A DNA stretch of 64,000 nt, taken from NCBI RefSeq assembly GCF_042453785.1, contig NC_091674.1, forward strand, positions 27,073,001 through 27,137,000. Reading direction: 5' to 3'. Source of the stretch: Malus domestica (Eukaryota; Streptophyta; Magnoliopsida; Rosales; Rosaceae). Shown here piece by piece: positions 4,173-46,475 of this stretch. A program made the translations under genes and the position numbers. A model generated the notes under the pieces. The model made no database searches and was not told the DNA's origin. It saw nothing but the letters and a program-made list of their open reading frames with translations. The first letter of the stretch is position 1, and each line of letters begins with the position of its first letter.

Positions 4173-4846
4173 AATGCATGTCAATTGCCAAGTTGCCAAC
4201 CAATCCTGCTTTAAGCAGAGGAGTGTATCTCTCTTAGGTGATGTCTTTCACATATGTCATCTGCCACTTTTAAGAAGGTGTTTCCAGTTTTCATTAATTT
4301 ATTTATTTTTAATTTGAGATTTAGCCTCTTGATTTGGGATTTATATCATATTTTGTCATTAGTCAATTATTGGCTCTAATGTATTTGGATTTTCCCATAT
4401 TTTTCTAATTTGTCATTTGTGAGGTGGGTTTCCTATCTGTAACTCTCTGATAGCCAACAACTTAAACATTTGGATTTTTTAATATTTTTGCCAGAGCATA
4501 CTGAAGAATGTGACTCCCACATGCATCTTGTGACAGAGAAAAATTCCACCCAATAATTTAGAGCACACAAAAAAGAAAGCTCAGAAATTGTTTGATCTCT
4601 TTTATTATATTATAGTTTATAGCCTCCAAAGCAAAGTAAGAGAAAGTACAAACACTGTCTCCTCCTCTCATTAACTAAACCAAATCACTAGCAAACACAC
4701 TACTCAATCTAGAATGTCACAGCGACGGTATCTCAATACAATCACATATTTTCTATGTGAAAAGTTCACGATTGTCTTTAAATACCGTCACTGTAATATA
4801 TCATGTGCATATAAGTTTTTCTCGTAGAAAAAAGTAAATTAGGGTC
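2679..4846. other. Intergenic, convergent 3' ends; microsatellites
   Basis: This spacer lies between the end of rsmG and the 3' end of the oppositely oriented WD40 gene. It holds a (TC)n tract at about 3290-3320 and a compound (CT)n(TA)n tract at about 4090-4168. The open frames are low-complexity and no gene or RNA was recognised. Confidence 0.7.
4090..4168. repeat. Compound (CT)n(TA)n microsatellite
   Basis: About 15 CT units pass through ctatctat into about 20 TA units. It is intergenic and likely highly polymorphic. Confidence 0.9.
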
Positions 4847-6061
4847 CTAGAGTTCGCTAGGAATAAAGACCTGCCAGACTTTGATGTCACAGTCCAAACC
4901 ACCACTGTAAATAACACAGGAGGAGTCAGATGAGCTGCAATGGTCATCAATTGTAGCAGTTAAACACTTCACTGGACCTTTATGCCCTTCCAAAACTGCT
5001 AAACATGAGTAACTTCTATTAACCCCTCTCCAAATTCTTATACTTTTATCTGCAGAGCCACTACACACCAAGTCTGCCACCACAGCCAAGCACAATATTG
5101 ACCTGGTATGACCTCTAAGCGCACCCAGAACTTCCATATTCCCACCCGCATCTTTCTTCTCCCAAACCACAATGGACCTGTCGCATGCACCAGAATACAA
5201 CACACACCCATCACTGCTCATAGCTAGTGCATTCACCCCAGAATTGTGCTTTTCAAGTGTAGCAACTAAAAAGTGCTTTTTCTCTCCAAAGTCCTTTTTC
5301 CAAACCTTAATTTTTTTGTCTGCTGATCCAGTGTAAACATGTCCATCATTTGATGATGTTACTGCATTTATAGCATCATCATGTGCATTTGTCACAGACT
5401 CCAAGCATTTGAAGTCTGTTGTGCTCCAAACCTTGAGTGTACGGTCCCACGAAACGGAGTAGAGCAGCAGCTCATCGCTCGACAAGGCCAGTGCAGACAC
5501 TGCGTCCACATGATGCACCCATGTGCACTTCTTGTGCCTTCTTATTTGGACATGGTTCTTCGGCATCAGGAGCTTCGAGGCGCGGTCACCAAGCGTTGGC
5601 AGCGTAGCTAGCCGCGAGCACTTTTGAAAATCAGGCTCCTGGCTGTCGATTTTCCACACTCGGATTTTGTGATCCTGATGAGCACTGAAGAGCTTGTCAC
5701 CTGAAATGGCTAGGGACTTCACTGCACCCTTTCCTGCAGCCACCATGTTGCGATCATGCTGAGTAGGGCTTTCGTTGTTGAATTCCAGTAAAGGGTTGCA
5801 CCTCCACGACCGGATTTCTCTGTCAGACGAGCCGGTGTAGATGAAGTTTCCGGCTAGGGTTAGAGAGGATATGTAGGAGTTGTGGCCCTGCAAGGTGGTG
5901 AGGCAGTGGTGGTAATTGTTTGATGGAAAGCTGTGTTGCCTGTGGGATTGTGAGGTGAGAGAAGGAACTGACTGGAGACTTGGCTCAGAAGAAAGGTAGG
6001 GAAACTCTGATTGGTCATAGAGATCATTGCCTGAGTACTGATAGGATGAGTTGCATTCCAT
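4847..6061 (-). CDS. WD40-repeat protein, JINGUBANG-like
   Basis: Single-exon frame of 404 residues that folds as a seven-blade WD40 propeller. The N-terminal 50 residues are Ser/Gln-rich. Blades then follow with recurring signatures: LQGHNSYISSLTLAG...GSSDREIRSW near residue 58, SAHQDHKIRVWK, VHHVDAVSALALS...SWDRTLKVW, AHDDAINAV...GSADKKIKVW, KHNSGVNALAMS...GACDRSIVVW, LRGHTRSILCLAV...GSADKSIRIW, and LEGHKGPVKCL...GGLDCDIKVW. This layout and the lack of introns match plant JINGUBANG and related WD proteins; JINGUBANG itself acts as a pollen-germination regulator in Arabidopsis. The role here is inferred from the fold family only. Seven near-canonical blades and an intact frame indicate a working gene. 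Confidence 0.88.
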   Translation of the reverse strand: MECNSSYQYSGNDLYDQSEFPYLSSEPSLQSVPSLTSQSHRQHSFPSNNYHHCLTTLQGHNSYISSLTLAGNFIYTGSSDREIRSWRCNPLLEFNNESPTQHDRNMVAAGKGAVKSLAISGDKLFSAHQDHKIRVWKIDSQEPDFQKCSRLATLPTLGDRASKLLMPKNHVQIRRHKKCTWVHHVDAVSALALSSDELLLYSVSWDRTLKVWSTTDFKCLESVTNAHDDAINAVTSSNDGHVYTGSADKKIKVWKKDFGEKKHFLVATLEKHNSGVNALAMSSDGCVLYSGACDRSIVVWEKKDAGGNMEVLGALRGHTRSILCLAVVADLVCSGSADKSIRIWRGVNRSYSCLAVLEGHKGPVKCLTATIDDHCSSSDSSCVIYSGGLDCDIKVWQVFIPSEL

Positions 6062-32823: not shown

Positions 32824-34278
32824 AAGTTTACCCGCGAAATAGTATGGTGAAAACTGCAGATGTACTGATAACGCACAGGAATAAAGAGGGTGAAAATATG
32901 TACTGAGCTAGAAGACTGGATGTCTATTTTAACCATTTGACTGGGAATAAGATACGGTTGAATTCAGAGGTACTTTGTTGAGGAGGAGGAAGTCATGGTT
33001 AAAATCTTGGGTGCAACCAGTGTTATATCCTCTTGTGCACGTGACGAGCAGGCGTAAGAGGATATACACTTAGTTATACTTAAGCATTTTTTTATAGTCA
33101 TGATATATTACAGTCGCGCACAAAGTCATAATTAACCTTTCCATTTCTCAATAGTCTTATAGATCTCATAAAATTGCTACCCATGATGCAGTGCGTACTA
33201 TTGGCAAGGGTTCCAATTGTTTTAGGGGATCATAAATTCCACTACAAAAAAAGAATCGAACTTGAATGCAAGAAGGTGGTCATACTATTCTTTTGTGCGA
33301 AAACTCGATGTATGTTGGGGCCATGGCAACCCTACATTCTGGTACTGCTGTGGCTGCCAACATTCCGGTCATCATATTGTTGATCTAAAATGTGATGGCT
33401 TTTCGGTGGTGGCTTGTTCCACAAGGAATTGGCCACTAAGTTTGGGAGTTAATGTCACAAGGTATGAAGGCAAGCTTCAATCTTTCTCAAAGTTTAAACA
33501 TGTAAGTGAAGTTTCACCTTTTCCCCTTCTTAGTCTTGAAGCCAACTTCTTTCAAATTAAATGGCAATCTTTACTCTCTTTGGTGGTAAATCTTAATAAA
33601 ATTCAACGAAAAATAATGAAAATGGCTTGTAAATGTTGAGTTTTAATCAAAAGAAATAAAAGTGTTGTAATAAATGAATAATATCATGAATAACTTTTTA
33701 GAGTAGAAATATCATTTAAGTTAAAAATGAACCGCACCAGAAATATTTCGTTAAAATTTCTTAAAATTAAATGTAACGAGTTAGTGAGGTGTTCGTGTCC
33801 ACGACAACTAGGCTGAGAGATTCCCAAACAGTCAGCCTCACTGGGATGCCCAGTTACCCGGGTCCCACCCACCTCCCTCAGGACCCCCTCCATATGGAAT
33901 AAGTAATGGGAAAAAAACAGAGGGAACCTTCCTCTGCGCTGTCTCTCTCTCTGCATTTATCTTCCAAACTTCGGATTGGATATACTCACATCCTCATACA
34001 CTGCATTATTATTATAATACACGTTCTGGATTCCACCGACCCTTTTTAATCTCTCTCTCTCTCTCTCTGAGCTGTGAGAAACCTCAGATTTTGTCCGTTG
34101 CTGTAGCTTCCTTCTTCCCTGGTGAACCTCCAACTACAGATTTTGGCTTTCCATATAAATTATGCATTTGGGCTCCTTTGTTACTGCCACTCCATTCCTT
34201 TTATTCAAGTTTCTGGGTTTCTAGCGGAACCACCGCTGCCTCCGTCGGCTTTTGGGATCTGGGTTTTCTGCATAAGGC
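32824..34278. other. Spacer between ALDH10 and KJC
   Basis: Contains the ALDH10 3' UTR, a stretch with no recognisable content (33000-33600), a decayed MITE copy at 33612-33768, and the KJC promoter and 5' UTR. The last has a (CT)n tract at about 34051-34068. Confidence 0.6.
33612..33768. mobile_element. Decayed MITE copy
   Basis: Shares blocks with 653-798: tgttgagttttaat near the left, actttttagagtagaaat in the middle and atttcgttaaaatttct at the right. It is strongly diverged, hence old. Confidence 0.4.
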
Positions 34279-37200
34279 ATGGGGAGCTCGGACGACAAGG
34301 TGGTTGCTGTGATCATGGTGGGTGGGCCCACTAAAGGTAAATATAATGTTACTGTCATCATCTTTGGATCGAATAATGAGACCCCATTTCTCAATTTCTC
34401 TCAGTTTTGGTGATGCTTGTTTGAATTTTCATTGGAAAGTTCGATGCTTTGTGCATTTTTGAGAGATTTAACTTTGAGGGTAAATTTCAATTGTTGAATC
34501 ATGAATTGGGAATCATGGCATTTCTCTTACAATCTTTGAGAAAGCACTTCTTGATATATTGGAGTTTCAATTCTACAGGAACTAGATTCCGGCCATTGTC
34601 ACTGAATATACCGAAGCCGCTTTTTCCATTAGCAGGACAACCAATGGTTCATCATCCGATTTCCGCTTGTAAAAGGGTATATTCTTGTAGATAAATCTGT
34701 CATTTCTGGCTTCATAGTGTGCATACTAGTTGAATTCACTGTCTTTTGGATTACAGATTCCGAACCTCACACAAATTTTCCTCATTGGTTTCTACGAGGA
34801 GCGTGAATTCGCGTTATATGTGTCCTCAATCTCTAATGAGCTTAAAGTCCCTGTTAGGTGTGAGATCCTGCTTTTGTTTTCCAGTTAGTAGTTACTGATT
34901 AGATCTTGAAAATATTGAACTGGATTTGATGTTTAATCTGTTGGTTGTACATTGCGTTGGTGTGGCGATTAGATATTTGAGGGAAGACATGCCACATGGA
35001 TCAGCTGGTGGACTTTATAATTTCAGAGATCTGATCATGGAAGACAACCCGGTTAGTCTTTTACCAACTCCTTTTTAATCAATTGATAAGTTTTTATCTG
35101 GTTTTTTTTGTTTGTTTGTTTAGGTCTTTCCTCTTAAATAAGTTGTGTCGATGCATACATGTTCTAATTCTCAGGCAAAAGGCTGATTGTGGTTCTTATA
35201 TTTGTTTGCAGTCGCACATTGTCTTGTTGAATTGTGATGTTTGCTGCACTTTTCCGCTTCCAGAAATGCTTGGTAATTGTTTCATGAGTTGCTGGGAGTA
35301 TCGTATGATTGTTTCCAGGTTATTCATTGTGGATTTATAAGGGGATTCCAGAAAGCTTAATCTCCACTTTTTGCCGTGTTTATTTGCAGAGGCTCACAAA
35401 AAATATGGTGCTATGGGAACAATCCTTGTGATCAAGGTTGGTCAAAAAATGTGCAAAGTTATTTAATAATAATATTGATTATTATATTATCTATTGTTCT
35501 CCATATCTAAGTTTTCTTCTTTCTATGTATAGGTTTCTGCTGAATCAGCCAGTCAGTTTGGGGAACTGGTAGCTGATCCGGTCACCAATGAACTGTTGCA
35601 TTACACCGAGAAGCCTGAGACTTTTGTACGTTTGAGATTGGAATTTCAAGCTTTTGGTGCATCAATGGAGAATTTTTTGCTCTCCTTTATCTTTCTTTCT
35701 ATAATTCTTATTTTATTCAGGTCAGCGACAGGATAAATTGTGGTGTCTACATATTTACACCAGACATTTTTAACACCATCAAAGGTGTTTCCACTCAGTG
35801 GAAGGACAGAGGTAGTGATACATTCTCCATGAATAGGTTGCCTGTGCTATTAGTGTGCTTTAATTTTGGTAACATGAAAGTTTAGTTCAACAAGCACACG
35901 GTATCTTTTTCATTTCTTTGTCAGTAGGAAATTCTTTGATACATAGATTGCTTCGACTAACATGTATTTTCACTTATTGATAGCATTGGTATTCACCATG
36001 CTGAAATCTGGACCGTTTTCTGGTATTTGCAGCTGATTTAAGACGTCTGTCCAGCTTCGAATCCCTTCATTCAGCAACAAGGTTTCTCTTCATATAGTAT
36101 AAAAAGTTAAAAACTACGTTGTTTAGTGAATTAAAAACACCGCTTTACTATAGTGCCATCCAACATATTGAATTGACTAGAATAGAAAGGTAATGCTGAT
36201 AGAGAGTTCCTTTATCAGGAATGCTCCCACGCATTTTGTAAGGCTAGATCAAGATATCCTATCGCCTCTTGCGGGGAAAAAGCAGTTATACACATATGAA
36301 ACCTTGGACTTCTGGGAACAGATCAAAACTCCTGGGTAAGATTTGCGTCCAAGGTGTTGTCTTGCTATAACCTTGTCCTCATCAGTCTGGGCCATCTTGT
36401 AAATATTTTGTGTTGATACTTGCAGAATGTCATTAAGGTGTTCTGGTTTGTATCTTGCACAATTTCGATTCACCAATCCACATCTCTTGGTGAGTGGAGA
36501 TGGTACAAAGAGTGCCAGTATTACCGGTGATGTTTATGTTCATCCATCAGCAAAAGTACATCCAAGTGCTAAGGTACGTTTTCTCTCATACTGGCTTTAC
36601 TAAATGTGCACATTCAACGAATGGCCTTGCAAAAATCTCATTCGAACCAGTTTAGGAATCCTATGACTAGGTTGTTGTAACTGTGATTTATATAGTGAAA
36701 CAGATTAGTATTGTCGCTTTCCAGATCATTTAGCATTCCCTTAGTAATGCATCTATTAAATCTCCTGTTATCTGCTCGTACAGATTGGTCCCAATGTCTC
36801 AATATCTGCAAATGCTCGCATAGGAGCTGGTGTGAGGCTCATAAGTTGTATCATCCTTGACAATGTCGAAATAAAGGTACATAACAAAAGCATAGGTTAT
36901 GGAGTGCATCCTCGACATCGCCTCATGTTGACATATGTACGATGCTTTGTTTCAGGAAAACGCAGTTGTTATTCATGCAATTGTTGGATGGAAATCTTCA
37001 ATCGGGAGATGGTCTCGTGTCCAGGCACGTTCAAAAACTTTCTACCAACCCATGCTTAATAACATAACTCCAACGTTCTTTCGTTATTTAAAGCTTTGTT
37101 GCAATTGACTTCTAAGTTTGGCACTATGATTTCAGGCTACTGGGGATTACAATTCAAAGCTCGGGATCACGATCCTTGGTACATAAATCCTTTCGTTTTC

Positions 37201-37383
37201 ACTCAATCCTCTTGTTCTGATAAAATTATATATCGATTTTGCCTTATGCGCCATCTGAATGCCGGTTTTATTGATAATTCAGGTGAAGCAGTGACAGTTG
37301 AAGATGAAGTGGTGGTTATAAACAGCATTGTCCTGCCCCATAAGACTCTCAACGTCAGCGTTCAGGAAGAAATCATTCTTTGA
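34279..37383 (+). CDS. KJC1: GDP-mannose pyrophosphorylase-like protein, KONJAC type
   Basis: Homologue of Arabidopsis KONJAC1/2, nucleotidyltransferase-like proteins that raise the activity of the true GDP-mannose pyrophosphorylase VTC1 and so support glucomannan and glycan synthesis. Fifteen exons: 34279-34336, 34579-34676, 34757-34857, 34973-35051, 35212-35272, 35390-35436, 35533-35625, 35721-35811, 36033-36081, 36219-36335, 36426-36573, 36784-36876, 36956-37024, 37136-37178 and 37283-37383 (1248 nt, 415 residues, the length I recall for KJC1). The N-terminal transferase domain starts with [14 protein letters not shown], which has an insert relative to the catalytic GGxGTRLRPLT motif, then [16 protein letters not shown]. 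The C-terminal half is a hexapeptide-repeat left-handed helix (about residues 285-400: [20 protein letters not shown]). Intron 13 begins with GC (CCAG/gcacgt). Confidence 0.94.
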
Positions 37384-37589
37384 TTGCTGCTTTTCTGAGT
37401 CATTGCTGTTATTCAAATTTCTCTTTTGTAAATTAACATCTTGCTATTTGCTAATAAATAAATAAATATATATGTATAATAAAAAGAAGTATATTTTTTT
37501 TAGGTGGTTGTTGGATAAAGGAGGATGGGGAGGGGAAGGGCGGGCGTCAGGTAGTCAACAGACGGTACTCCTAGGTTCTGTCGAATCTT

Positions 37590-37697
37590 TATGATAATGA
37601 ATCCTCAACGAAATTGCGCTACACAGAACCGAGTGCAATGGTGTTCTAGGATTTATATAGCTGACCCCACTTAGTGGGAAAAAACTTTGTTGTTGTT
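37590..37697 (+). mobile_element. SINE 3' part, Au-like, with TTG tail
   Basis: Reads cgagtgcaatggtgttctag, atagctgaccccacttagtg and ggaaaaaactttgttgttgttgg. The cccacttagtggga block followed by a TTG-repeat tail is typical of Au-type plant SINEs. The head is truncated or too diverged to place. Confidence 0.6.
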
Positions 37698-38372
37698 GGA
37701 TAAGATGTTTTGCTTCTTCATAGATGATAGAGAGGACAACTCAAAACGGTCCACTCGAAACCCAAAGGTTTTCAATCATCGGGAGATAAAATGTGTTAAG
37801 AATTTCAAATTCTAGAAGAAAAACAGTGTTACTGCCAAACACGGAAGGAAAAATATTGATAGACGAGTCGAGATTTTTTCCGGATATCTGTGTTCGGAAC
37901 CGTAAGATCTAGAGATCCAGGCCGTTGAAGAGATAGAAAGAGAGATTCGGATCCTTGATTTGTGTGAGGTGGGCCAGTGGAATGGACTAACGAGAACCGC
38001 ATAATTTAAAATGAGTAGTCCGGATCTCCAGATACGTCAGCTTAGAGATCTCTCCAATCTTCGATGCAGTCGTCCAACAAGGATGCTCGCAGTGTTAAAG
38101 AGGAGAAAAAAAAATTACAGTATGCATAAAAATTGCAAGTTTTTAAGAGCCCTTCAGTTTCAGAGAATATATAAACTACAACTAGAGTGATCCCATCAAA
38201 GATAATGTATGCAGTATGGTGTGCCTTGTATTTCGCCAGCTGAATCTACGGACAAGCCAGCGGTTGCCGCTGAGGGAAAATCCCCACCCGGGATGGGGAA
38301 CATCGGACACATAACGCGCATATCCAACAAAATCATTCAACTGGGAAAGAACAAAAGAAAGATTCATAGCGT

Positions 38373-39027
38373 GTTTACTAACCCATAATCGGAATGAGAA
38401 TAAGGAATCCGATTTTGATTACAAATTATACATGTGTTTACTAAAATTGGAAGGAATCAAAAGTGCATGGAGCCCACACAAAAAATAGAATCCAATTCCA
38501 AGATTTGGCTTATTTGGATTCCCAACATATTGGATTCGGGAGTGCCCAAGCGATCGGAATGATAATTTTTTCCCTTTATGCCCTCACTTACTTTCATTAT
38601 TTTCAAGATTATCCTTAACCCTAGACTCACATTATGCATAACTCCATACATATGCCGAAGAGAAGAAACTACAACTTGATTGAGAAAATTTAGATATTAA
38701 AGTAAATACTTAAATTTAAAAAAAATAATAAACAAAATCATTTTAGTGTGTATGAAATAAAAAAGCTATTTAATTTTTTCTCACTATTATATATTGAATC
38801 AAATTTTATTAAAAAAATATAAAATATTTGATTTGGCACAAGGGCATTTTAGTAATCATACTGATTTATATTCTTATTCTGCTGAATTAGTAAACAGCTT
38901 TATGAAATTTTATTCCAATTCCAGATTGTTTTAATAAACAACTTCAACAATAATCTGATTCTAATTTTGGCTCATTTTATTTCCTCCTCAATCTAATTTC
39001 TCTCAATTTGATTACGGATTAGTAAAC
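38373..39027. mobile_element. Non-autonomous TIR transposon, about 655 bp
   Basis: The left end gtttactaacccataatcgg (then aatgag) is mirrored by the reverse complement of the right end, gtttactaatccgtaatc, then aaattgag. The interior is AT-rich with no transposase. A similar end, cactaatccggaatcggaat, occurs at 63628-63650 near the window edge. No clear target duplication was found. Confidence 0.65.
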
Positions 39028-41090
39028 TCGTCCTCGGGAATGTCTGCAGCGGACCAGGGAGTTCTCGGATTGGTGTACGAATGTTCTACCAAGGCGTAAC
39101 TATGTGGAGAATGTCTATCTGTGGATGTGTGGGCACGCGAAATTCCTCATTACAAAATAACATGAAACACGATGTTAATTAGGAGATCCGGAACCAGAGA
39201 TCAGAAGAGAAGATATGTGGAGTTTTTTTCTGAGTTTATGCATTTGTTCATCAAATATTTTGTATGACTTGCATATATAGTTGCAAGTTTTACTGTAATT
39301 TACACAAAATATATGCACATCTCTAACTAGCCACCGATTCAAACGGAAACAAATAAAAAAATTCTGTGAGAATGTCGAAAATAATCCTTCTCTGCCGGGT
39401 TAACGAGAGTTGAATTGAAGTGATTTCCTTGAGTCAATTGGCGCATGTCAAAACAGAGAAGCATCAAGAAATTTGGATTGGATTGGAAAAATCCTCTCCA
39501 CCAAAGGCACAAGGATTTTTCCAGACTCCATGTCAAATTTGTGGAAAATTTGGACATCTAGCTGTTACTTGCTGGTTTCGAAATACTGAGAACTCTATTC
39601 CAGAAGGCTGTCAAATCTGTGGAAAAAGGAATCACAGTGCTCCTTTCTATCATTTTCGAAATGCCAACCTACAAACTCAGCAAGTGTCAACTATGCATGT
39701 TGCTGCTCCATCCTTTGTTCCCAATGCTCCTCCTCAACAGATTTGGCTCACAGATTTTGAGGCTACATCTCACATGACTGCTAACCTTAATCAGTTGCCA
39801 TTGGCCTCTCCATTTCCTTCCAATGAGACAATTCAAAATGCGGGTGGTGGTGCAGGTTTATCAATCTCCCACATTGGTTCATCAATTCTACATACACCTT
39901 TCAAACCACTGCATCTTAATTCAGTTCTATATGTGCCTAAACTAACTCAGAATTTGTTATCCATGCATAAATTGTGTCTGGATAATAATTGCTGGTTAAT
40001 ATATGATGCTTTCTGTTTTTGGATCCAGGACAAAGCCACAGGGAGGACACTCTTCAAGGGACATTGCAGTAATGGATTATACCCTATTCCCTACCAGTTT
40101 CATATCATTCTTCTTTACCAAGAGTGCAAGTTGCTTTCCTTGGACAATTTGTAACTTCGAATCTATGGCATAGTAGATTAGGCCATCCATCCATCCAATT
40201 ATATAGTATCTGCAATTTTAAGAAAATGCAATGTATCTAATATACCTGATCATAAGTCTAAGATGTGTCACTCTTGTCTAGAAGGGAAATTTTGTAAATT
40301 ACCATTTGTTGACTATGTCTCCAAGTCCATGCATCCTTTTGATATTGTTCATAGTGATGTATGGGTTCCTTCCCCTTGTAATTTTGTGGAGGGTTTTAGA
40401 TACTATGTGACATTCATTGATGAATGCACTAGACATTGTTGGCTCTTTCCTCTCATCAATAAAAGTGATGTTTGTTCCACTTTCATTGCCTTTTACAATT
40501 TTGTCTTAAATCACTCTGATGTTTCTGTTAAAACCTTACAAAGTGATGGGGAAGGTGAATATATTAGCAAGTCTTTTCAACAATTTCTTGTGACCAAGGG
40601 TATTAAACATCAACTTTCATGTCCATACACCCCTGAACAAAATGGCCTAGCTGAAAGGAAGCATAGGCATATTGTTGAAACAGCTATAACCCTTTTGCAA
40701 ACTGCCTCATTGCCTCCAAAATTCTGGTCCTTTGCCTGCCAAGTTGCTGTCTACCTTATTAACAGAATGCCAACACCTGTTTTACACAACAAATCTCCAT
40801 TTGAGTTGTTGTTTAAAGATGTACAAGCTATCAATCATCTTCGGATATTTGGTTGTTCTTGTTTCCCACTGTTAAAACCTTACAATAACACCAAGTTGCA
40901 ACCTAAAACAACAAAATGTGTCTTTTTAGTCTATGCTTCTAGATACAAAGGCTACCTATGCTATGAAATGAGTCAACAAAAGATGTATATATCTAGGCAT
41001 TTTTTATGAGAGTGAATTTCCTTATGCCATGTTGTCTTCCAAAACCCCAAATTCCTCATCTTCTACTCCTATTTTGTCATCCTCTATTTC

Positions 41091-41765
41091 TAGGGCTGGA
41101 AAAAAATTCCAAAAATCCCAAACCAAACCGAAAAATTCCCGAAACCAAACCGAAAAAATCCCAAACCGAAATTCCCGAAAATTTCGGTACCCAATACCGA
41201 ACCGATCCGGAAATTTCGGTACGGGAATCGGTCTCAAGTTTTTGGGATTTTGGTATTCCCAAACCGAACCGAAAAAATATATATATATATTATTTAATTT
41301 TTAAATATATATTTAGATCGATAGAGTCCATAGAAAATGAAGGCTTCAATAGTTGCACATATTTCTGTATGAATGATTTAAATCGACAGAGTCTTGCAAT
41401 TGTAGCATCTACATTTGAATCCAAATTGGCAGAGTCTTGCAATTGTAGTATCTACATTTAAATTGACATAGTCTTGCAATTGACACATATTGCAACGAGC
41501 TTCTTAGCAGATTGCAACCCAAAAGTGTTAAAAGATTCAATTTTAGCCCAAAAACATAATATTTTAGTCCAAAAGCCCAAAAACCCAAAATTATTTTGGG
41601 ATTCCCGATTTGTCCCGAAATCCCGAAACTATTTCGGGATTCCCGAAAATTGGGATTCCCGAAAATTTGGTTTGGGATCGGTATTGAAATTGGGATTCCC
41701 GAAATTTTTGGTTTGGGAATCAGGACAAGGGTTTCGGTATGGGATCCCATACCGAACCACCCCTA
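41091..41765. mobile_element. hAT-like non-autonomous element nested in the copia element
   Basis: 675-bp insertion with ends TAGGGCTGG and CCACCCCTA and a perfect 8-bp target duplication TCTATTTC (41083-41090 and 41766-41773). Eight-base duplications and TAGGG-type ends indicate the hAT superfamily. The interior has many copies of the palindromic block ttcgggattcccgaa and related cccaaaccgaa words, typical of subterminal transposase-binding repeats. No transposase is present. Confidence 0.88.
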
Positions 41766-43657
41766 TCTATTTCAATGCTTTATGTCACACATGATAATCA
41801 GGTTGTCTCCATCTCATCTGCCTCTACCTTACCTACACTTGAGTCTCTTCCTAACCCACCATACCCTGAATCCATTACTGCAACATCAACACAGTCTATT
41901 CTACCTTATTCCCCTGTGGCTGCAGAATTGTCCTCTGGATCTAATCATCATGATCACACTGAGTTTTCTTCCGAGTTCCAACCTGAGAGTTTGCAAGTGG
42001 TTCCTTCTCTCCAACCTATGAATACACATGCAGACAAGATCCAAAAATGGCATCTTCAAGCCTAAAGTTTTTCTCTCAACCATTGGAGAGGACAATCCAC
42101 TTGATTTAACTCAGGTGGAACCATCAACATACAAGTCCGCTCTTAAATCTTCAGTATGGAGTGCAGCAATGCAAGAAGAGCTCTTAGCTTTGCATTCTCA
42201 AGGAACTTGGTCCTTAGTTCCTCTTCCTGCAAACAAGAATTTGGTAGGGTGTAAGTGGGTCTTCAAGATTAAAAGAGGTGTAGATGGGAACATTTCTAGA
42301 GATAAGGCAAGACTTGTTGCCAAAGGTTTCAATCAAGAAGAAGGTATTGACTATGGAGAGACTTTTAGTCCAGTTGTTAAACCTACAAATGTGAGGTTAG
42401 TTTTGGCTTTAGCTGCACAGTTTGGTTGGTCTTTAAGGCAACTTGATGTGAAGAATGCATTTCTTCATGGCATTTTACAAGAAGAGGTTTATATGTCTCA
42501 ACCTCCAGGTTTTGTTAACTCTTAACAGCCCTCTCATGTTTGTAAGTTACATAAATCCCTATATGGCCTGAAACAAGCCACAAAGGCTTGGAATGAGAGG
42601 TGTACCAATTTTTTGCCTTCTCTGGGTTTTCTTACAACATATTCAGACTCCTCTTTATTTGTGAAACATGTTGGCAATTCTGTGGTCATTCTCTTGCTCT
42701 ATGTGGATGATATAATCATCACAGGCAGTGCTATTGCAGCTATTACTGATGTTATACAGGCTTTAGCTCAAGAATTTGATATTAAAGATTTGGGACCACT
42801 CCATTACTTCTTAGGGATCCAAATTACTCATCATTCTACTAGATTATTTCTTTCAAAGTCAGTATGTTACAGATTTGCTTCACAAGACTGATATGGCTCT
42901 CTCAAAACCGTGTAATACCCCTTGTCTGCCTTATACCAGGTTACTTAAAGATGATGGAAAACCCTTTCATGATCCAGCATTGTATCGAAGTGTGGTGGGT
43001 GCTTTGCAATATCTTACATTTACAAGACCCGACATTGCTTTCTCTGTGCATCAAGTGTGTCAGTTTATGCATTGTCCCATGGAATCTCATTTTCTAGCTA
43101 TGAAGAGAATCCTCCAATATCTGAAAGGCACAATGGATTATGGTGTTCAACTAAGCAAAGGGGATTTATGTTTAACGGCATTCAATGATGCTGACTGGGC
43201 TGGGGATCCAAATGACAGACGGTCTACTACAGGTTTGGTGGTTTATTTAGGGTCTAGTCCCATCTCTTGGTTATCCAAGAAACAAAATACCGTTTCTAAG
43301 TCCTCAACTGAAGCTGAGTACCGAGCACTTTCATCCACAGCTGCAGAGATTGACTAGATCACTCAACTTCTGAAGTTTATTCAGATTGATATCTCATGTC
43401 CAGTCACTCTTTTCTATGATAATCTTTCTGCTATAGCCTTGGCTTATAATCCAGTTATGCACCAAAGGACAAAGCACATTGAGGTTGATATTCATTTTGT
43501 TCGAGAAAGGGTTGCCAAAAAGTTACTTCAACTTCAGTTTGTGTCTTCCAATGAACAATTTGCCGACATTCTTACCAAGGGATTGTCTACTCCGTTATTT
43601 CGAACACATTGTTACAATCTCAGGTTGAGCAAATCTCCTCCTGTGATTGACGAGGGA

Positions 43658-43929
43658 TGATAACAATAGACAAAGCAATCTTAACAGCTTGTAATCGTGT
43701 GGTTGTAATAGTGACAAGTGTAGTTAGTCATCCTGTAATCTTTGTAATAGCTTAGAAAGTAAGCAATCTAGTTAGATATGTACTCTACATAACCATCATT
43801 GTAAGATATGAAAAAATAGTCAAGAAATAAACATATCTTCTCTATCTAAAATTCTCTTTCTCTCTCTTCGAATACCTATTTCTTCTTCTGCAAGAATACA
43901 TCTTCTCCGTATCTGTTGGTATCTTTACA
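43658..43929 (+). repeat. 3' LTR of the copia element
   Basis: Starts TGATAACAATAGACAAAGC right after the purine-rich cgaggga and ends TTTACA. The end is set by the abrupt switch to DEL exon sequence at 43930. It contains a T-rich 3' half with tctctttctctctc. Confidence 0.7.
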
Positions 43930-46475
43930 CGGAGTACCATGTCTTCCATGCTTCCATATAATGAGAAAACAGGTCCTTCAAAGCTTCAACATGAAGCAAG
44001 ACACATGATTTAGTAAATTTTCATCCGATAGTAATGGCGACAGTAATAATCATGTAAAGCGTGCTTGATTTTGATTTCGATTTCTGCTATAAGACGTTTT
44101 CCTATTGCTAGTATGATTGTCCTCTTGGCTTTGTTTCAACACGGGGTTTGGATATCCAGTTCTGTTCTTCCCACACCTAGTCAGTCTCCGGTCATGTTTC
44201 TTTCTCTATCCACCTCCCTTCTCGTTCTCCCACTATTGTCAGCTGGTCCTACAGACAAGTTCACCAAGGCTGATGATAGTCATGGATCATTAAAAAAAAA
44301 GTGTCCATCAATCATCTGTGGGTATAAAAACTAATGAAGTTTCTTATCCCTTAGTTGGCTTCCTGATGTGAATTCAAACCTATAGAAATGGATCGCTAAT
44401 GCTAATGGTAAATGATAAGAGCAGCTATATTTACTGTTCAAAATCAATTTCTTTCAATCTAATGCATGATGAATCATAAGATGATACCTTGGTTTTGATA
44501 CTGAGGACGATAAGTAGACGTCAATTTCTCCCAGTCATGAACGTTCCTCGTGTTGCCAGTCCCAGCTCTGGCAATAGTGACAGGAGCAAAAGGACCAAAC
44601 TGATAGCTCTTTGAACCATCTTTTGAGTCTTCCAAATTGCTCCTATCAGCCTCACCTACTAGGCCCTTCTGTTTTTGCCCATCCAACTTCCCACCAATAA
44701 AAGAGTCTACCTTTCCCCTCTTAGAACTGACGTTCGTTATATCTGTGCCAAAAGCTCTCTTCTTAGTCTCCTGAGGAACCTCCTCTTTTCCTCTTAATCC
44801 CAACCACTTAAATGCAGGCTTCCTCGTATCTGATGTGTGGGTCTGCACATTTTTGCATAAGAAGAAAAACATTTATCTTGACTAAATAACGTGTATATGA
44901 TTCTAAATTCGGAAGTTTCATTTCTTTCTTCTATTGAGGATTCAAATTAGTGTTTTTACCTTCTCAATGAGGTTCATGGATGACAAAACATTCGCAATAT
45001 CATAAATCCGCCTTACCTTTGCTGCTTCATCAAGTTTCGAACAAAAGTTAGTCAAGAGTTTCTGCTCCATTATAACATATGATCAGGAATAAAGAAAACC
45101 AAGTACAAATTTACTACTTCTCATCACTGATGCTTTGTGTGCATCTCCAAGCAGTGATTTGGCAGCTTCATCAAGGGAAATCGTTTCAACCTACAAGTTC
45201 ACGCAGTAAAATCAATAATGGCCCAAAATTACGCAAAACCCAAATCACAGTTCTATAAAATAAGCAAGTTGTTATCCATTATTTCACTCACAGTTGAGCA
45301 CACAAAGAGCTTCACAAAATTCTGCGTAAGAAGCGCCAGCGACTTTTCCCTTCTATTATCTGCTTAACAGCAAATAAAAAGTAAGAGTCTTTAGGATATC
45401 ACCAAACTTACCATTCATAGTAATTGAATATCCCCCCTATAACTTAGCCCAAAGCACCGAACAAGATTGAAAACACCGAAAACAAGGCTTACCTGATTTT
45501 GGGTTCATAGGTTTAACATTGAGAGTAGGGTTGGAGTTTTCATTCTGCTGACTCCCACATCTTTCTGCATCATCCTCGTCGTCTGAAATTTGATAACCCT
45601 GCGAGAAAAAAAGAAAATTTTAGAATTTTGAATTCAAAAACCTTGTTTTGAAGAGATGAACAGCTCAATATTGAAAACACCCCAAAGACTTACCTTTGGA
45701 TCTTCGTTGCCGTCAAAGTTACAAATATTCTCTCTCAGGCCCTCTTCCTATTACACAATAAAATCACCAAATCAGTACTAAATTCAAACAGATTCAAGAA
45801 ACGAACACCAAAATTAAAGAGAACATTGGATCAATCTGAATCTTAATGATGAATTGTGAGAGATAAATACCCTTAGCTCTTGCAGGGCATTAGGGATCGC
45901 CTTAAATCCTTTCCAAGAATACTGGTTCTTCGCCTTTCGAGCAAGAACCTGGAAATTAAAATCAACCTAATGAATAAATTGATATTAAAAAAGCCGAAAC
46001 AAATTGAAACAAAAGTACCAAGAAAGGAAAGAGAGAAACTGACCCCAACGCTCTCCAGGACGTTGACAATATCGTAGATCCTCCGCCTCTCAACACCTGC
46101 AAGTCGAGAAACCATTAGATCCGATGAATCGAATACAATGAGGTGCGAAGGGATCGCAGATTGGGGAAAGATGGAGACCAAGTCGTGAAGCGGCGTCGTC
46201 AAGGCCGATTGAAGTCACGCCGTCGCGGTTGTAGAGGACGAGGAAACTACACGATTTGAAAGAAAGGAAGAATTAGAGAGAGAGAAAATCAAAGAATCAA
46301 GAAAATTGCAGACAGAGAGAGAGGGAGAGGAGAGTGAGGGGAGAAAGTACTTGGAGCACAAGAGGCCTAGAGACTTCTGCTTTCTGCTGTAGCCGTGGTT
46401 TCTGGCGGAAGGCCCTGTTGAAGCTGGGTCCGGTTGTTGCTCTGTGGCTGGAGGTGGGGATGGAGGAGCAGTCAT
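43925..46475 (-). CDS. E2FE: Atypical E2F (DEL/E2F-like) repressor, C-terminus cut by an LTR
   Basis: DP-E2F-like protein. It binds E2F sites alone through two DNA-binding domains and represses cell-cycle and endocycle genes. Eleven exons on the minus strand: 46351-46475, 46179-46246, 46044-46096, 45871-45948, 45694-45747, 45493-45598, 45292-45359, 45118-45190, 44960-45021, 44488-44842 and 43925-43983 (1101 nt, 366 residues). Domain 1 spans about residues 30-100 (KQKSLGLLCSNF, GVERRRIYDIVNVLESVGVL). Domain 2 spans about 165-245 (REKSLALLTQNFVKLF, KVRRIYDIANVLSSMNLIEK, KPAFKWLG). The last exon reads ALKDLFSHYMEAWKTWYS and then enters the copia LTR at 43929, where the frame ends as V-stop. Relatives continue past WYSE, so a short C-terminal tail is replaced. 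Both DNA-binding domains are intact, so a working protein is still possible. Confidence 0.9.

Follow-up and report, generated by a model that had tools for sequence, protein, structure and literature searches.

The window analysed here, a stretch of 64,000 nucleotides of apple (Malus domestica) DNA (NC_091674.1, positions 27,073,001 to 27,137,000 of assembly GCF_042453785.1), lies on contig C14 of a genome of 651 Mb in 19 contigs. It carries on its minus strand a DEL (atypical E2F) gene whose last exon runs into the long terminal repeat (LTR) of a Copia retrotransposon. The host part of the gene (43930..46475) starts with an ATG at 46475 and comprises 11 exons, at 46475-46351, 46246-46179, 46096-46044, 45948-45871, 45747-45694, 45598-45493, 45359-45292, 45190-45118, 45021-44960, 44842-44488 and 43983-43930. 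The model was established from the gene structure, from an exon-by-exon match to a duplicate on contig C6 and from two E2F_TDP stretches. All ten introns have GT-AG borders, and the frame, which encodes 366 amino acids, contains no internal stop or frameshift. The Pfam family E2F_TDP (PF02319) is found in two stretches (E-value 1.4e-44), corresponding to two E2F/DP winged-helix DNA-binding domains, and the best match among solved structures is Transcription factor E2F8 (4yo2), covering residues 30-236. Atypical E2Fs lack dimerisation, RB-binding and transactivation domains; at the level of Pfam families, nothing in the protein besides E2F_TDP exceeds its curated cut-off, and the sub-threshold matches to TrmB and Cdc6_C both overlap the first of the two DNA-binding domains. 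With its two winged-helix domains the window gene is a DEL, or atypical (E2F7/8-like) E2F, in agreement with the original prediction, made from the letters of the window, of a DEL/E2F-like gene at this place.

The duplicate on C6 (locus L009) is collinear with the window from a neighbouring gene (34019-37473) through the whole DEL gene. It is uninterrupted, encodes 376 amino acids and ends KTWYS-EVAGKNPIRIS-stop, with the stop within its exon 11; on the basis of this comparison we take it to represent the probable pre-insertion state of the window gene. A protein search of the genome, which a strongly diverged DEL could escape, revealed two DEL exon sets, on C14 and C6. Five other places (on C3, C11, C12, C8 and at 3.52 Mb on C14) match along one short stretch (residues ~62-98, 49-55% identity) and are presumably typical E2Fs. 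The two DEL proteins differ at 22 of 365 residues, nine of them within residues 2-19. One difference (V45G) lies within the first DNA-binding stretch (32-96), and those at residues 187, 196 and 203 are probably within the second. The E2F_TDP scores are 150.1 bits for the window protein and 148.6 bits for the C6 protein. Two methods gave dN values of 0.030-0.031 and dS values of 0.21-0.25, that is a dN/dS ratio of ~0.12-0.15. Exon 11 is 96% identical to that of the duplicate across 53 bases and is joined in frame. Intron 10 (43984..44487, minus strand) is 504 bp long against 337 bp in the duplicate (167 bp longer) and has an AAG acceptor instead of CAG, differences that are unpolarised, as either copy may hold the older state. 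The donor of intron 5 (at 45693) also differs, the intron being GC-AG in the C6 copy and GT-AG in the window copy.

Read on the minus strand from 43983 downwards, exon 11 is ALKDLFSHYMEAWKTWYS, followed by GTG TAA. Its host part opens with CTTTGAAG and closes with TGGTACTCC and a single G, where the LTR begins. The resulting hybrid codon GTG (G from the host, TG from the LTR) and the TAA inside the LTR occupy 43925..43930, with the stop codon at 43927-43925, so that the protein ends KTWYS-V-stop. The position of the junction was obtained from both sides. Comparison of the window with LTR-family loci places the edge exactly at 43929 in five of seven cases; two further loci extend to 43930 (L003) and 43932 (L002), overhangs of one and three bases, short enough to reflect chance matching. 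The alignment of the window with LTR copies on C10, C11, C12 and C13 extends as far as 43929, and homology with the uninterrupted C6 duplicate begins at 43930. LTR edge and host edge thus abut base to base, which in our judgement, made without a formal test, is no coincidence. The original prediction had placed the switch from exon to LTR terminus at this very base, followed by Val and a stop, and both edges bear it out. It had also stated that relatives continue as WYSE plus a short tail and had read the leftover G as the first base of a Glu codon; the C6 copy indeed continues WYS-EVAGKNPIRIS-stop and has GAA at that place.

The LTR (43658..43929, plus strand, 272 bp, TGATAACA...TTTACA) was delimited by alignment with LTR copies on other contigs. 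It is the 3' LTR of an element lying antisense to the DEL gene. The internal part (39493..43657, plus strand) encodes an integrase followed by a reverse transcriptase, contains several stops and lacks its 5' end. The domains rve, SH3_retrovirus and RVT_2 are found in separate open pieces (rve within 40182-41006, RVT_2 within 42022-42888), and the order of integrase before RVT_2 identifies the element as a Copia, as had been proposed. Relatives on C5, C10, C11, C12 and C13 possess both LTRs, with the same LTR ends and with TGGTATCATT following the 5' LTR. They are flanked by 5-bp target duplications, exact in four of the five (CTTTT on C13, AAACT on C11, TCAAG on C10, TAGGG on C5) and with one mismatch on C12 (AAATG/AAATA). 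The window copy has the 3' LTR alone: a search of 30000-60000 for direct repeats of 60 bp or more paired 43658-43929 with no other place, and matches to family copies on the 5' side begin only at 39493. The pentamer CGGAG (43930-43934) stands beside the 3' LTR, and its expected partner is absent along with the 5' end of the element. In each of the two internal Copia segments, all three forward frames are interrupted by stops. The window element is a degraded derivative of a two-LTR Copia element and not an intact one. A probable solo LTR of the same family was noticed on C9 (L029, 4169200-4171080), with GACGC on both sides.

A second element of 675 bp (41091..41765, TAGGG...CCCTA) is nested within the Copia internal part. 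It has short inverted ends and is flanked by the 8-bp target duplication TCTATTTC (41083-41090 and 41766-41773), features that make it hAT-like. Elements with the same ends occur elsewhere in the genome, with at least 46 matches (40 of 1272 candidates scored); among the matches listed, several are full length and 94-97% identical.

The former end of the DEL gene was located on the far side of the element. Window positions 39386-39484 match positions 4807-4906 of the C6 locus, and the window resumes the match from 43930 at C6 position 4921. The 14 host bases in between (L009:4907-4920) are lost from the window, and on the element side the 5' LTR and ~1.15 kb of internal sequence are missing. 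Between the two edges stand 8 bp of filler (GGAAAAAT, 39485..39492), at what we presume to be the scar of a 5' deletion. From this arrangement the 5' LTR was apparently lost through a deletion that also removed the 14 host bases, and one target duplication presumably disappeared with the 5' end of the element. The remnant of the ancestral last codons is found at 39464..39484 (minus strand), reading NPIQIS-stop against NPIRIS-stop in C6, as judged by eye from the reverse complement. Next to it, 39178..39463 (minus strand) is presumed to be the ancestral 3' untranslated region (UTR) or downstream flank. Three patches between 39178 and 39484 are conserved with C6, at 83-92% identity. The old 3' flank now lies 4.4 kb from the DEL gene, so the separation of the gene from its normal 3' region, also foreseen in the original prediction, is supported. 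Since 14 host bases are missing at the scar, loss of the element alone would not restore the old protein end.

The presence of a single LTR in the window copy makes direct LTR-LTR dating impossible. As a rough proxy, we used the LTR distances of relatives together with branch lengths in a tree of eight copies built on the 3' ~1.7 kb or less. The branch of the window copy is 0.035 substitutions per site, compared with LTR distances of 0.023-0.035 and branches of 0.021-0.034 for the five two-LTR relatives; L029 spans the LTR part only, and its long branch is uninformative. By proportion, the insertion would be ~0.014-0.025 substitutions per site old, against a dS/2 of 0.10-0.12 for the DEL pair. 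The insertion would be roughly 10-25% as old as the DEL duplication, a comparison weakened by the fact that transposons probably mutate faster than genes. Such values argue for an insertion much older than the cultivars and possibly shared across Malus. The decay of the element, with its 5' end gone, a hAT-like element nested inside and stops in all forward frames, makes a recent polymorphism among cultivars less likely.

From the anatomy of the locus, its reading frame, the uninterrupted duplicate and the decay of the element, all directly visible in the assembly, we infer an order of events and the steps at the level of RNA and phenotype. One DEL gene of the duplicated pair would have received a Copia retrotransposon, in antisense orientation, within codon 366. 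The 11 C-terminal residues of the protein, which read EVAGKNPIRIS in the duplicate, would thereby have been exchanged for one valine, both DNA-binding domains being kept. Later, the element would have lost its 5' LTR and ~1.15 kb together with the 14 host bases, and the hAT-like element would have settled within it. The gene would still yield a nearly full-length protein. Its transcript would either use cryptic cleavage and polyadenylation sites within the antisense LTR or element, or continue by read-through as far as the old 3' flank stranded beyond. The mRNA output of the gene would probably be lower or chromatin-dependent, and the intact C6 copy would buffer the loss. We consider it probable, by a clear balance of the evidence, that the antisense insertion trimmed a DEL duplicate that is still coding and takes its 3' end from the element or beyond. 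The coincidence of LTR edge and homology loss at 43929/43930 and the uninterrupted tail of the duplicate support this reading, as do the open frame over 11 exons, the GT-AG borders of ten introns, the dN and dS values between the copies, the 22 differences among 365 residues and an E2F_TDP score equal to that of the duplicate.

Two Arabidopsis precedents from one report (PMC10241880) point in the same direction. At GER5, an ATCOPIA78/ONSEN element lies antisense at the 3' end of the gene, as the Copia does in the window DEL. Both transcripts that terminate within the element and transcripts that run across it are described there, epigenetic mutants switch between the terminating and the spanning forms, and LTR-promoted antisense RNA is reported. 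The GER5 insertion differs in lying in the 3' UTR, whereas that of the window DEL lies in the coding region. At RPP4, an exon insertion of ATCOPIA4 truncates the protein while the locus is still transcribed; RPP4 transcripts persist and some run across the element. In RPP4, a resistance gene, the original 3' exons include a putative C-JID domain and are retained by a subset of isoforms only. The window DEL, in contrast, loses only 11 residues, to an element without its 5' end. Given these clear plant precedents the kind of event is already known and, as a phenomenon, can be regarded as ordinary.

Several observations weigh against a gene that is still coding and ends in the element. A scan for eight poly-A-type hexamers found none in the LTR as read on the minus strand; past the junction, AATAAA first occurs at 43381, in the antisense element body (the hexamer listing for the window omits sites between 39600 and 41700). 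As a control, the C6 copy was scanned and also has no AATAAA within 900 nt after its stop; the hexamer scan therefore does not predict the poly-A site of the window copy. The AAG acceptor may lower the use of exon 11. The dN/dS ratio covers both lineages from the duplication onwards, so that the time following the insertion cannot be separated out. Under neutrality, 0.9-2.0 indels would be expected in the window copy since the insertion, and simulated neutral changes produced a stop in 0.32 of runs with 8 changes and in 0.57 of runs with 18. When the indel and stop estimates are combined by hand as independent, the chance that a neutral copy would still be without stop or indel is ~0.06-0.27, and the undamaged frame is consequently weak evidence.

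The strongest rival, to which we give perhaps a quarter of our belief, is that the window copy is turning into a pseudogene, its output collapsed after separation from the old 3' end and the work left to the C6 copy. Such a collapse could come from a long 3' UTR, from nonsense-mediated decay or from silencing that spreads out of the element. Just two DEL genes were found and one of them is uninterrupted, 4.4 kb now separate the gene from its old 3' flank, and its last intron has an AAG acceptor, which is weaker than the CAG of C6. However, outside the insertion the copy has an open frame free of indels that shift it, all its splice dinucleotides are kept, and its domain score equals that of the duplicate, although damage may not have had time to show since the insertion. 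On the strength of these sequence features we favour retention of function, and the intact C6 duplicate together with 11 otherwise undamaged exons argues against a drastic effect.

It is unlikely that the gene ends elsewhere, exon 10 continuing into intron 10 (QNQGIIL-stop) or joining another last exon, so that the LTR boundary would be irrelevant. The in-frame stop shortly past exon 10 and the AAG acceptor of exon 11 would fit this reading, but the near-identity of exon 11 to its counterpart, in frame, and the stop carried by exon 11 of the duplicate speak against it. A further proposal, somewhat less probable still, goes beyond a coding gene trimmed by the insertion: the LTR-bearing DEL would have been retained and fixed as a subgenome-specific Malus form, its dose set by the chromatin state of the element. 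If so, apple would possess two brakes on endoreduplication, a constitutive one on C6 and a transposon-gated one on C14, the latter gated via the DEL 3' end and perhaps also by LTR-driven antisense RNA into exons 11-10. Finally, the junction is known from one assembly, but an assembly error is very improbable, since a misjoin would hardly coincide to the base with the end of an LTR and leave both flanks collinear with the duplicate, and the nested element has its own target duplication.

Arabidopsis DEL1 lowers endoreduplication by repressing CCS52A2 (PMC7994507), and expression of the apple atypical E2F MdDEL1 tracks cell production in fruit (PMC3408378). MdDEL1 appears there as one GenBank entry, CV631574, which may represent either of the two DEL copies. 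Given the link to fruit cell production, the two copies lend themselves to comparison for RNA stability and function. PMC11277112, considered as a source on MdDEL, was rejected because it concerns DELLA genes. In titles and abstract openings of the papers listed from the open-licence literature on apple and Rosaceae E2F/DEL no report of the locus was found, and in the open-licence literature we found no paper on LTR-supplied poly-A sites in apple. The locus is a base-exact case of a retrotransposon trimming one duplicated cell-cycle repressor gene and stranding its old 3' end, and its interest lies in the two-copy comparison, the uninterrupted duplicate serving as an internal control within the same genome.

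The neighbouring gene at 34019-37473, collinear with C6, is apparently on the plus strand and converges on DEL. We take it to resemble a sugar-nucleotide pyrophosphorylase-type (GMPPA-like) gene. The convergent intergenic region (37474-39177) measures ~1.7 kb, compared with 0.33 kb in C6. Within it, the ends of ~38370-39030 resemble inverted repeats by eye and perhaps delimit another small transposon.
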